Source: Nitrososphaerales archaeon TH5893 (GTDB lineage: Archaea > Thermoproteota > Nitrososphaeria > Nitrososphaerales > Nitrososphaeraceae). Taken from it: a stretch of DNA of 12,567 nucleotides. This document shows positions 116 through 8,099 of the stretch, piece by piece. Under the pieces are notes generated by a model. The model saw nothing but the letters and a program-made list of their open reading frames with translations. It did no database searches and was not told where the DNA came from. The DNA is taken from assembly GCA_014523685.1 (NCBI GenBank), contig JAATVT010000101.1, positions 1 to 12,567 of the forward strand, in the 5' to 3' direction. The translations under genes and the position numbers were made by a program. The number at the start of each line of letters is the position of its first letter. Position 1 is the stretch's first letter.

Positions 116-868
116 TTGGTATTTATTGCTAGAACAAAGTCACCTGAGGAATGGAAAGCAGTCACATCCGCAATCTCTACTTTGGTAGATGAGGCAACAT
201 TCGAAGCAACTGTTGAGGGTATATCATTTAGGGGAATGGACCCATCACATGTTGCACTCATAGATATTCAATGGCCCAATTCAACATTTGCTTCTTACGA
301 ATGTGATTCCTCCGTAAAATTTGGTGTTAGGGTTGATGAATTTTCCAAATTGATAAAGAGAGGCGACAAGAAAGACGGTGTAGAAATAGGTGTTACCGAT
401 GACAGCAAGTTGACTATAAAACTTTCTAATGGGTATAAGAGAGAATACAAGATGAGACTTATCGAAAGTTCCTCATCTTCCACGCCTCTGCCAAAATTAA
501 GTTTCAATTCTAAAATTGTATTGACTGGAGGTGCTTTTGACAAGATCCTCTCCGACATTCAAGTTGTTTCTGAATATATTTCTCTTCACACCGACTCCAA
601 CAGAGTGGAATTCTCGGGAAAAGGTGATTCAGGCGAAGCCGAAATAGTCTTAGAGTCTGGAAGCGAGGGTCTTGAGGACCTAAACGTTAAAGAAGTAAGT
701 ACCGCCACCTACAGCTTGGATTATCTGTCCAAAATAACTAAGGCGATAGGAGCTGTGGGATCGTCTATAGCTGCTGAGTATTCAAGCAAGATGCCGCTAC
801 GCCTTGAATTCAGAGTTGCCAATATTGGAAGGATCCATTTTTACCTGGCGCCCAGAGTTCAGGATTAG
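116..868 (+). CDS. pcn: DNA polymerase sliding clamp PCNA
   Basis: This encodes a 250-residue archaeal PCNA, the ring-shaped trimeric clamp that tethers polymerases, FEN1, ligase and other replication and repair proteins to DNA. The length is usual for the family. Visible hallmarks are GMDPSHVALID (residues 40-50), the interdomain connecting loop near residues 116-127 (a serine run followed by TPLPKL), and the C-terminal LAPRV that forms part of the PIP-box binding surface. The start is TTG: an in-frame TAG lies at 95-97 and no ATG occurs between it and the conserved N-terminus. A TTTAAA element at 76-81 could be the TATA box, giving a leader of about ten bases. The next gene, aspartate kinase, follows after 57 bases on the same strand and has no obvious functional link. 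The identification is firm; the exact start is slightly less so. Confidence 0.96.
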   Translation: MVFIARTKSPEEWKAVTSAISTLVDEATFEATVEGISFRGMDPSHVALIDIQWPNSTFASYECDSSVKFGVRVDEFSKLIKRGDKKDGVEIGVTDDSKLTIKLSNGYKREYKMRLIESSSSSTPLPKLSFNSKIVLTGGAFDKILSDIQVVSEYISLHTDSNRVEFSGKGDSGEAEIVLESGSEGLEDLNVKEVSTATYSLDYLSKITKAIGAVGSSIAAEYSSKMPLRLEFRVANIGRIHFYLAPRVQD

Positions 869-4921: not shown

Positions 4922-6991
4922 TTGAAGCCGAAGCATAGTATCGAAGTGGCATCAACCCAAGTAGAGAATGTTACCTCGCCTAGAACTAGCTCTTCGATTA
5001 ATAATATGGGCAGAATCAGATACGATAAAAAGGCAGAGTCAGAATTCTTTGTTGACAACTCAGCACTTGCCGGATTTACTGGAGAACGTATTTTATATAT
5101 GGCGGTTAGAGAATTAATTGAAAATTCTCTTGATTCATGTGAGATTCATCACATTCTGCCTGACATTACTTTGTCCTTAAAATTGGTTGACCCACTAAAC
5201 GATCTTTGGCTAATCTCTTGCGAGGATAATGGGATAGGAATCCCAGCTGACAAAGTGCCTGTTGCGGTGTGCTCATTTCTTACATCCGGGAAATATGTCG
5301 AAAAACAACAGAGAGGTCTTTTTGGCGTCGGTCTCAAGATGATAGCTGCGTTCTCAACAAAGGATACGGATCATCCCCTTAGAGTGTGGAGTAAATCAAG
5401 TGAAGATAGAGCCGAACATTACTTTGATCTCAGAACAGATATCAATACCAACAAGCCAATTGTCATGGCCAAAAATGCATTGAAACCCCCAGACGGTCGG
5501 ATTAAGCATCCTTCTGGATTTAGAATTGAGGCAATATTACGCGCGAGATTGTCTCCAATAACTAAGAGCCGAATTTATGAGTATATCAGCCAGACGAGTG
5601 TTGTTAATCCATATTCAGTCCTAGTATTTGAGACCGATGATGGCAGGGTTGTTTTCGATAGGCGGACAAATGCTATCCCCGAACCTGCAAAAGAAGTCCT
5701 GCCACATCCTTCTGACATGGATCTAAAGACCCTCAAGAAAGCAGTTATGAATTATATGAATCAAAAAACAACCATCCATGGTCTTCTATGTTCGGCCTTC
5801 CAAAAGATTTCCGGAGAAAAGGCAAAGGAAATTATCGGGAGAGCAGGGGTAGATCTTAAGGCGGCAAACCTGTACAATGAGCATGAACTTATAAAAATTG
5901 TCAACGTCTGCAAACACACCAAGTTTCAAAGTCCAAACACAGACCATCTGAGCCCAATAGGAGAACAAATTTTGACAGCTGGTATGACCTCTGAATATGC
6001 TATCACAATGAACAAAGACGTACGAGGCTCGCTTCCTCAAGACCAACCACATCTTACCGTCAAAGTGCTAAAACCTTCCCTCACGGCGTATTCTTCAAGA
6101 ACATGTGTAATTAACAATAGACCAACAGTAGTGGAGTGCGGGATTGCATATGGTGGTGATATCGGCTCATTTAAGCTGTACAGATTTGCAAACAAGATTC
6201 CCTTGCTTTACGATGAGGGTTCTGATGTGGCAAGAGAGGTAGTCTCTGAAGTGGAGATAAATAGAATGGGAATATCAAAAAAAGAAGTAAAAGAGCAGTT
6301 TTCGACAGCTGATACCAAATCTGATCGAGCAGTCGAAATGCTTCCTATTCATATTTTTTTCCACATTTGCTCAACTAAAATTCCGTATAAAACAGCAGGC
6401 AAAGAAAGTATCGCTGCAGAAGGCGAATTGAAAAAATACATGAAGTCATGTTTAGCAGATCTATATAGGAAGGTAAGCGCCCAAATACGAAAAGAGCTTC
6501 GTGTCAAGGATGCTGAGAATCGCCTCCGTTTATATCGCCACTATATACCATTCATAATTGAGGCAATTTCAGAATCGATTGATATTGATGCAAAGAGACT
6601 TTATGAGTTGTTCAATAAATTAGCTGAAAGACATGTCAAAGGTGAATCGCTACCAACTAAACCGAACTACATTGAGGACACTATTACCGAAGATAGGATC
6701 CAGCAGGAGGTTGGAAAGGATACATTGGCTCCATCAAAAACAGCATCCCCTAATATGTATGGGGAAAAAGCTTTGGGGGATGAGGACAAATACCTTCGAT
6801 CCAATACATCAGCCCTTCGAACAAAAAAAAAGACATCTATTCTAGCCCCAAGTAAAGACAATCAGCCAGAAAATTTGCGACATACTACTAGAATCAAGAA
6901 TAAGAAAAGAAAAAAGAAAGAGATAGACAATCAAATAACGCTGGACAAATTCGATAAATTTAGGAGACCGAGAGAGCCCGGGAGAAGGTAG
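4922..6991 (+). CDS. top6B: DNA topoisomerase VI subunit B, with PIP-like tail
   Basis: This is the ATPase subunit of topoisomerase VI, an A2B2 type IIB enzyme that passes one duplex through another. The GHKL ATPase shows ELIENSLDSCE (64-74), EDNGIGIP (101-108) and the ATP-lid motif RGLFGVGLKM (131-140). An H2TH region follows at about 268-330, then the transducer with YRFANKIPLLYDEG (420-433) and STKIPYKTAGKESIA (484-498). At 689 residues it is well over the roughly 530 of the well-studied crenarchaeal protein. The excess is a low-complexity tail from about 580, a basic block KNKKRKKK (659-666), then QITLDKFD (671-678), which resembles a PCNA-interacting box. The start is TTG right after an in-frame TGA at 4919-4921; ATG at 5006 (residue 29) is an alternative. 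A nine-A run lies at 6823-6831. Subunit A follows after four bases. Confidence 0.95.
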   Translation: MKPKHSIEVASTQVENVTSPRTSSSINNMGRIRYDKKAESEFFVDNSALAGFTGERILYMAVRELIENSLDSCEIHHILPDITLSLKLVDPLNDLWLISCEDNGIGIPADKVPVAVCSFLTSGKYVEKQQRGLFGVGLKMIAAFSTKDTDHPLRVWSKSSEDRAEHYFDLRTDINTNKPIVMAKNALKPPDGRIKHPSGFRIEAILRARLSPITKSRIYEYISQTSVVNPYSVLVFETDDGRVVFDRRTNAIPEPAKEVLPHPSDMDLKTLKKAVMNYMNQKTTIHGLLCSAFQKISGEKAKEIIGRAGVDLKAANLYNEHELIKIVNVCKHTKFQSPNTDHLSPIGEQILTAGMTSEYAITMNKDVRGSLPQDQPHLTVKVLKPSLTAYSSRTCVINNRPTVVECGIAYGGDIGSFKLYRFANKIPLLYDEGSDVAREVVSEVEINRMGISKKEVKEQFSTADTKSDRAVEMLPIHIFFHICSTKIPYKTAGKESIAAEGELKKYMKSCLADLYRKVSAQIRKELRVKDAENRLRLYRHYIPFIIEAISESIDIDAKRLYELFNKLAERHVKGESLPTKPNYIEDTITEDRIQQEVGKDTLAPSKTASPNMYGEKALGDEDKYLRSNTSALRTKKKTSILAPSKDNQPENLRHTTRIKNKKRKKKEIDNQITLDKFDKFRRPREPGRR
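6932..6955 (+). other. PIP-box-like motif QITLDKFD in Top6B C-terminus
   Basis: Residues 671-678 read Q-x-x-L-x-x-F-D, matching the PCNA-interacting core (Q, aliphatic at +3, aromatic at +6); the second aromatic is Asp, a relaxation seen in some archaeal PIP boxes where only one aromatic is kept. It sits 12 residues from the C-terminus after a disordered-looking basic linker, the usual context. Function is inferred. Confidence 0.55.
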
Positions 6992-6995
6992 GAAG

Positions 6996-8099
6996 ATGCC
7001 GGCGATAGATGAACGTCATCAAGAAGTTATTAAGAAAATCAAACTGGTTATGAAAGATATCAGCAAGAATATTACAGTTGAAAGGATGCCTGTCTTGGAC
7101 GTCCCGAAAATCGGATACGATAACACAATCTGGTCTGAAGAAAAAAGGATGTTAACAATTGGGAGTAAGAAAGTTCAAGTTAGCCCTGATAGCATCAAGA
7201 AAATTCCAACATTTTCGCAATATCTTGTCATGGCTAATGCAGTAAGAAAGTTGCTTGATGAGGAAATGGAGAGCACAATAAGAGGCATGTACTACGCTAC
7301 TCTAAGTACAGTCGGGGACGATAAAATAAAGCAAAAGTTCTGGAATAGTCAAGAAAATTCTGATGATGCGATCAAGGCAGTTGAATTGCTGACTGGAGTT
7401 CCCCGGGAGGAATTCTCCGTGACATCCAAACCCAAGGGAATGATTTCGGGTCCAATCACCTTGCGAGTCGGCGGCGACGTTATAGACTGCAGCCTTGGAA
7501 GCAGGGCAACCTCGCAGCTGATCCCAACCAACATCCGCGATCTAGAAATAATTGATGTCAAGGCAGACTTCATCATGGTTGTAGAGAAAGATACAGTTCT
7601 CAATAATATCCGCAAGTCAGGATTCATTCAAAAATATAACGCCATATTGCTAACTGGATCCGGAGAACCTGACCGCGCTACTAGAATGATGGTAAAGACT
7701 CTAAATGAAGTCTGGAAAAAGCCGGTAGTAATATTTACTGATGCAGATCCATGGGGTTTAGGGATCGCCTTACGTTACAAGATTGGCAGCGAGTCGCTTA
7801 GCTATGATAGCGATAGACTGGTAACTCCTGACGCGAAAGTGTTGGGAATGATGTTTTCTGATATCTACGAGTATAATATACCTGAAGTAGCCCGATTGCC
7901 CGCAACTGAGGAAGATATATCCAGAGCAACCGATATGAAGAAGAAACCATGGCTGAATGACAAAAAGTGGCAGAAAGAATTGTCATTGTTTTTACAGAGA
8001 AAGGAAAAATGCGAGCTAGATGCATTTTTCAAGCACGGCTTCAGGTACTTGGCAGAAACCTACATTCCGGAAAAGCTGAGGCATGCGGGCCTTCTTTAA
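6996..8099 (+). CDS. top6A: DNA topoisomerase VI subunit A
   Basis: This is the DNA-cleaving subunit of topoisomerase VI, the archaeal relative of Spo11. The 367 residues comprise an N-terminal winged-helix (CAP-like) domain with the catalytic tyrosine in RGMYYATLS; Tyr100, the second of the pair, is the likely nucleophile. The Toprim domain that follows has metal ligands Glu197 (MVVEKD) and Asp249/Asp251 (TDADPWG). The segment TGSGEPDRATRMM (220-232) is the conserved Toprim stretch after the glutamate strand. The C-terminus has the family's W-x-x-E-L region and ends HAGLL. It begins four bases after the top6B stop, with a purine-rich GGTAGGAAG immediately before ATG, so the two subunits are almost certainly co-transcribed and made in matched amounts. 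All key residues are present. Confidence 0.96.
   Translation: MPAIDERHQEVIKKIKLVMKDISKNITVERMPVLDVPKIGYDNTIWSEEKRMLTIGSKKVQVSPDSIKKIPTFSQYLVMANAVRKLLDEEMESTIRGMYYATLSTVGDDKIKQKFWNSQENSDDAIKAVELLTGVPREEFSVTSKPKGMISGPITLRVGGDVIDCSLGSRATSQLIPTNIRDLEIIDVKADFIMVVEKDTVLNNIRKSGFIQKYNAILLTGSGEPDRATRMMVKTLNEVWKKPVVIFTDADPWGLGIALRYKIGSESLSYDSDRLVTPDAKVLGMMFSDIYEYNIPEVARLPATEEDISRATDMKKKPWLNDKKWQKELSLFLQRKEKCELDAFFKHGFRYLAETYIPEKLRHAGLL

Follow-up and report, generated by a model that had tools for sequence, protein, structure and literature searches.

The window analysed here, a stretch of 12,567 nucleotides from Nitrososphaerales archaeon TH5893, an archaeon of soil, encodes a topoisomerase VI subunit B (Top6B) whose C-terminal tail is probably a flexible tether ending in a putative PCNA-interacting (PIP-type) motif. 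This signal, which is conserved and takes textbook form in some relatives, suggests that the untangling of DNA is tied to its copying. Docking of the tail on the sliding clamp had been proposed in a sequence-only reading of the same DNA, and is supported by the sequence comparisons described below.

Topoisomerase VI genes and the C-terminal tail of Top6B

The top6B gene (4922..6991, + strand) encodes a protein of 689 aa from a TTG start codon, the position of which is uncertain, with some relatives called at 661 or 681 aa. It is identified by its relatives, the close ones that bear a lineage name being assigned to Nitrososphaeraceae or Thermoproteota archaeon, and by Pfam matches to PF09239 (1.1e-34) and HATPase_c. 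The top6A gene for subunit A (6996..8099, + strand; PF21180 and PF04406) starts 4 bp after the end of top6B, and the GHKL ATPase and Topo-VIb transducer domains found with Pfam, with top6A adjoining, identify the protein as topoisomerase VI subunit B. In an AlphaFold2 model built on a 32-sequence alignment (pTM 0.67), most of residues 35-575 (5024..6646, + strand), comprising the GHKL ATPase, H2TH and transducer regions, are folded, while pLDDT values below 50 are confined to residues 1-34, 362-375, 388-393 and 576-689. A large insertion near the places of residues 366-375 of the window's Top6B occurs in the Top6Bs of genus g2 (L132, L133, L135 and others), the open frames of which span approximately 700-1010 aa.

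The last of the low-confidence regions, residues 576-689 (6647..6988, + strand), constitutes the predicted disordered tail. When compared with the 530-aa chain 2zbk_B, which we take to derive from Sulfolobus shibatae, residues 34-561 align to residues 7-494, and the 159 extra residues are distributed as approximately 92 at the C-terminus, 27 at the N-terminus and 40 internally. The protein is thus longer, as the sequence-only reading had held in comparison with the classical crenarchaeal subunit, but the tail accounts for approximately 90-110 residues and not for the 150 or so ascribed to it. The low-complexity linker described in that reading is indeed predicted to be disordered and is variable, but it is not featureless, since residues 586-598 (6677..6715, + strand) are conserved among close relatives, as judged column by column over 97 sequences. 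A second conserved stretch is found at residues 621-627 (6782-6802). Both are possible second binding elements.

The basic block KNKKRKKK (residues 659-666; 6896..6919, + strand) precedes the PIP-type motif QITLDKF (residues 671-677; 6932..6952, + strand), which with D678 extends to position 6955 (QITLDKFD, residues 671-678, 6932-6955) and fits the pattern Q-x-x-(I/L/M)-x-x-aromatic, and twelve residues follow F677, all as first described. The archaeal PIP box is defined in a passage of PMC7776575 as QxxLxxFx, and Q671, L674 and F677 occupy its positions 1 (Q), 4 (L/I/M) and 7 (aromatic). A strict definition, given in a passage of PMC3950489, includes two aromatics; position 8 in the window is D678, and the motif is therefore filed as PIP-like rather than as a strict PIP box. 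The missing second aromatic had been named as a weakness, and it is a real one in the window, but this residue is present in other Top6Bs (QTTMDVFY and endings of the QHTLDAFF type). The motif lies within the flexible terminus below pLDDT 50, and a short helix is placed on it, over residues 674-679, with low confidence in the free model. The proposed partner, the PCNA sliding clamp, is encoded at 116..868 (+ strand; Pfam PCNA_N and PCNA_C) and matches archaeal PCNAs of known structure over its length. It retains M41, H45, V46, P227 and Y243 at places which presumably correspond to the PIP pocket of human PCNA, and its pocket is therefore considered intact.

Top6Bs of the Methanomethylicia and known clamp clients

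The most telling comparison lies outside the class, in family f22 of the same phylum (labels f2-f22 are the groupings used in this analysis), which has two Top6B copies; in the seven genomes read, a PIP box terminates the second of these. Family f22 is assigned to the Methanomethylicia from its named relatives; six of the first 44 proteins related to the second Top6B in a protein search bear names, these being Candidatus Methanosuratus, Methanomethylicus, Methanomethyliales, Methanomethylicaceae or Verstraetearchaeota. The pattern QxxΦ[DE]x[FYW] followed by a hydrophobic residue at position 8 occurs in 43/44 of these second Top6Bs, with endings such as QHTLDAFF, QSTLEQFF and QMTLEQFW, and position 8 is aromatic in 23/44; only P0163 is devoid of the motif. 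Four further proteins (P0165-P0168), which share 50-54% identity with the Methanomethylicia second Top6B, end in QPTLDNFF, QPTLDNYF or QPTLDTYF, and the short P0169 carries QHTLDSFF. P0170-P0172 have no motif, and neither do the other 68 Top6Bs returned by the protein search (0/68); the strict motif is likewise missing from 43 Top6Bs from other classes of the phylum (0/43), of which eight and three bear loose labels.

In four f22 genomes the second operon consists of a PIP-tailed top6B followed by its own top6A (with Pfam applied to one Top6B and one Top6A of this second copy), while in three of these four the first operon encodes a 514-aa Top6B without a tail, again followed by top6A. One genome can therefore hold topoisomerase VI both with and without the motif. 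The loci to which this pairing of a tail-less and a PIP-tailed operon relates are L364-L370. The second topoisomerase VI of the Methanomethylicia resembles that of the window in that its Top6B has a long disordered tail with a PIP-type end, and differs in that the PIP box is of textbook form and stands beside a tail-less topoisomerase VI. This contrast between copies is the strongest support for the clamp-docking reading, and a PCNA tether can be proposed with higher confidence for the Methanomethylicia copies than for the protein in the window.

Known clamp clients serve as a yardstick. The PolB enzymes of related genomes end in QSNLDELFW, QQSLDELFW or TKLEEYFW, and that of the window's own genome in QANLDELFW. 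FEN1 ends in QSLE[KQN]WF (12/22 loci read, with the own-genome FEN1 not among these), and in RQSSLERWF, RQPNLDKWF and similar forms in 6/7 cases in f22. The motif grammar of Top6B matches that of these known clients of the same groups, except that the second aromatic, retained by FEN1 and PolB in related genomes, is lacking in the window. RFC-L was rejected as a further reference: no C-terminal PIP box occurs in its readable ends in related genomes (for example L158, L160, L162 and L164-L166), and it gives no calibration because the other rows are in the wrong frame and all matches fall under the family cut-off. A passage of PMC7776575 does report a C-terminal PIP box on RFC-B of Haloferax, unlike the RFC-L of these related genomes. 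RNase HII (4/17 loci read) showed no motif and was not used, and comparison of Top6B tails with PDB sequences returned unrelated weak matches only.

As in the archaeal PCNA clients FEN1, PolB, RFC-L, RNase HII, NreA and Hef, Top6B presents a short Q-x-x-L-x-x-aromatic motif at a flexible terminus; the differences are that the motif is borne by a subunit of a type IIB topoisomerase and that, in the window, it has no second aromatic. Human topoisomerase II alpha, an enzyme of type IIA, has been reported to bind PCNA and offers a parallel for a clamp-linked type II topoisomerase. The Top6Bs of gyrase-bearing archaea also carry a lineage-specific C-terminal addition, which according to the passages available of PMC9348778 is a folded immunoglobulin-like domain, in contrast to the disordered tail with docking motif in the window.

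Variation and conservation of the motif in the Nitrososphaeria

Among 33 complete Top6Bs of the window's family (34 same-family genomes with a match, minus L094, which has an open end), sixteen carry the strict motif, seven lack the aromatic at position 7 (QTTLDAV-like), six retain only LxxF and four have none. Absence of the strict motif from 17/33 of the family, including its complete loss in four, counts against a PCNA tether. Two of the sequences (L088 and L091) end in QTTMDVFY, with both aromatics, and other strict forms include QEKIENFM (two) and QSTMDSF or QSTIDSY. In genome G003, Top6B (L004) has lost the motif aromatic (QTTLDAV), while FEN1 (L064; QSLEKWF) and PolB (L274; QQSLDELFW) keep theirs, and a changed clamp therefore does not explain this loss. 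Beyond the family, the strict motif is found in f4 (10/11), f13 (4/4), f11 (2/2) and in the single sequences of f9, f10 and f12 (1/1 each), and all four f7 sequences match, although two of these matches are false (L143 and L338), being located inside the folded end and not in a tail. It is absent from thirteen Top6Bs of f2, which we infer to be the Nitrosopumilaceae and in which one near miss ends in KQSSLKDHV and whose lack of it also speaks against a tether, and from the 25 sequences of f3, f5, f6, f8 and f14-f19 together. The label 'LxxF without Q' refers to core residues where it was given to Nitrosopumilaceae or to other Top6Bs without a tail. Four named loci (L037 and L039-L041) are without a C-terminus and L363 was left out of the analysis; the locus counts overlap, with some genomes present both as a named locus and under a G handle.

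Relatives of the f10 Top6B, collected by protein search, carry QxxΦ[DE]x[FY] within their last 25 residues in 97/120 cases, as against 0.27/120 matches in shuffled ends. The residue at position 8 is never aromatic in these 97 motif-bearing proteins (S, G, A, D, I, T, R, K or N), and is G, D, E, N or S in the relatives of the window's Top6B. The consistent absence of an aromatic there, where FEN1 and PolB retain theirs, is the argument that weighs most against a plain PIP box. It favours a reading in which the Nitrososphaeria motif is a docking peptide for another partner that recognises QxxΦ[DE]x[FY], for instance another replisome or chromosome-organising protein, with only the Methanomethylicia motif binding PCNA. 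Such a partner is considered unlikely, though it deserves more weight than the other alternatives: QTTMDVFY and QEKIENFM, each present twice among the genomes of the window's family, indicate that the motif drifts into plain PIP form, and PolB and FEN1 there share its core, [ST]L[DE]xΦ.

The graded series within the family, from two aromatics to one, to none and to loss of the motif, would also be expected if the window motif were a weakened remnant of a PIP box, inherited from an ancestor that bound PCNA and now being lost. The five anchors of the motif (Q671, T673, L674, D675 and F677) are, however, invariant in 97/97 near-full-length close relatives of the window's clade (the first 98, minus the 628-aa P0013, which stops before the motif), which argues for present selection and makes decay of this kind rather improbable. 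K679 is likewise invariant, positions 672 and 676 vary slightly, and position 678 varies more. Mean entropy across these relatives is 0.13 bits in the motif, 1.19 bits in the linker (residues 581-670) and 1.57 bits after the motif. The sequence-only reading had asked whether the motif is kept while the linker varies, and among close relatives this is the case: across fourteen linker clusters mean identity is 0.93 in the motif and 0.40 in the linker, and the motif is the most conserved seven-residue window of residues 599-689. The motif codons change synonymously across 36 distinct DNA versions (all clades pooled), and a DNA-level cause of the conservation, such as a top6A promoter beneath the motif, was discounted on this ground. 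The motif is selected as a peptide.

The motif is also rare at other protein ends. In a 28% sample of a same-family genome (700 ORFs), Qx[ST][ILM]Dx[FY] occurs within the last 40 residues of Top6B only, and the looser Q..[ILMF][DE].[FY] in 4/700 ORF ends, Top6B included. A QxTLDxF-like DNA pattern has 22 matches in the window's own genome, one of which ends a long ORF, that of Top6B, with the remainder located within stop-to-stop frames of at most 72 codons. A motif match at the end of a transglutaminase (L249) was taken as chance. A chance match in the window's tail itself, which is basic, of low complexity and rich in K and R, might be suspected from the occurrence of the loosest pattern, Q..[ILM]..[FYW], in 9/700 ORF ends of the same sample (Top6B included), but is scarcely credible given that the last 40 residues of 120 relatives yield a mean of 0.1 matches when shuffled (maximum 2) against 107/120 observed, a guide rather than a p-value as homologues are not independent, and that the same motif type ends three separate Top6B clades and the conservation data contradict chance.

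Evolution and proposed role in replication

In a FastTree phylogeny of 145 Top6Bs (midpoint root, some weak nodes), motif-bearing sequences fall into three separate clades, one formed by the window's family, one by some of the other Nitrososphaeria and one by copy 2 of the Methanomethylicia with P0165. Either repeated gain of the tail or many losses of an old one would fit this distribution. Among the Top6As compared outside the family, the nearest to that of the window is the Methanomethylicia copy 2 protein (33-37% identity, 229-250 bits), with the f10 Top6A (30%, 172 bits) and Methanomethylicia copy 1 (approximately 29%, 147-154 bits) scoring lower, and in a tree of 44 Top6As the window's protein clusters with copy 2 and with sequences from other classes. 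The Nitrososphaeraceae may thus have exchanged topoisomerase VI, which is a lead and not a result.

If the tail acts as a PCNA tether, the pocket of the clamp would receive Q671, L674 and F677, and the disordered residues 576-670 would give the A2B2 enzyme the reach to act on DNA and crossings near the loaded clamp. Its likeliest task would be to clear precatenanes and supercoils from the DNA near the fork and behind it, since clamps remain on DNA that has just been replicated. The window motif, having no second aromatic, would be expected to bind PCNA more weakly than FEN1 or PolB do, and such binding would be appropriate for an enzyme that has to leave the clamp accessible.

In the titles, abstract openings and passages of the open-licence literature searched, topoisomerase VI is nowhere described as carrying a PIP motif, and the word PCNA is absent from PMC13040014, PMC11302465 and PMC9348778. 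According to passages of the review PMC4929162, and also of PMC8228993, pull-downs with NucS of P. abyssi recovered PCNA together with the two subunits each of RFC and topoisomerase VI. The interaction network obtained in P. abyssi with PCNA as bait (PMC3820547) provides no support, its sole 'topoisomerase' passage concerning topoisomerase 1. Passages of PMC9348778 relate the folded Top6B C-terminal additions to gyrase and describe the Top6Bs of archaea without gyrase as having shorter ends that resemble one another. According to a passage of PMC2643942, from 2008, no archaeal topoisomerase other than topoisomerase VI was then known to relax positive supercoils, a function essential for replication.

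With PIP-type tails on at least three Top6B clades, those of the Nitrososphaeraceae, of other Nitrososphaeria and of the second topoisomerase VI of the Methanomethylicia, it seems somewhat likely that recruitment of topoisomerase VI by the clamp is a design that recurs among archaea, and that in the Methanomethylicia a dedicated clamp-bound enzyme works alongside a housekeeping one without a tail. A natural comparison is offered by genomes that encode topoisomerase VI in both forms, PIP-tailed and tail-less. If true, the clamp tether would be a direct and testable answer to how topoisomerase VI reaches newly replicated DNA.
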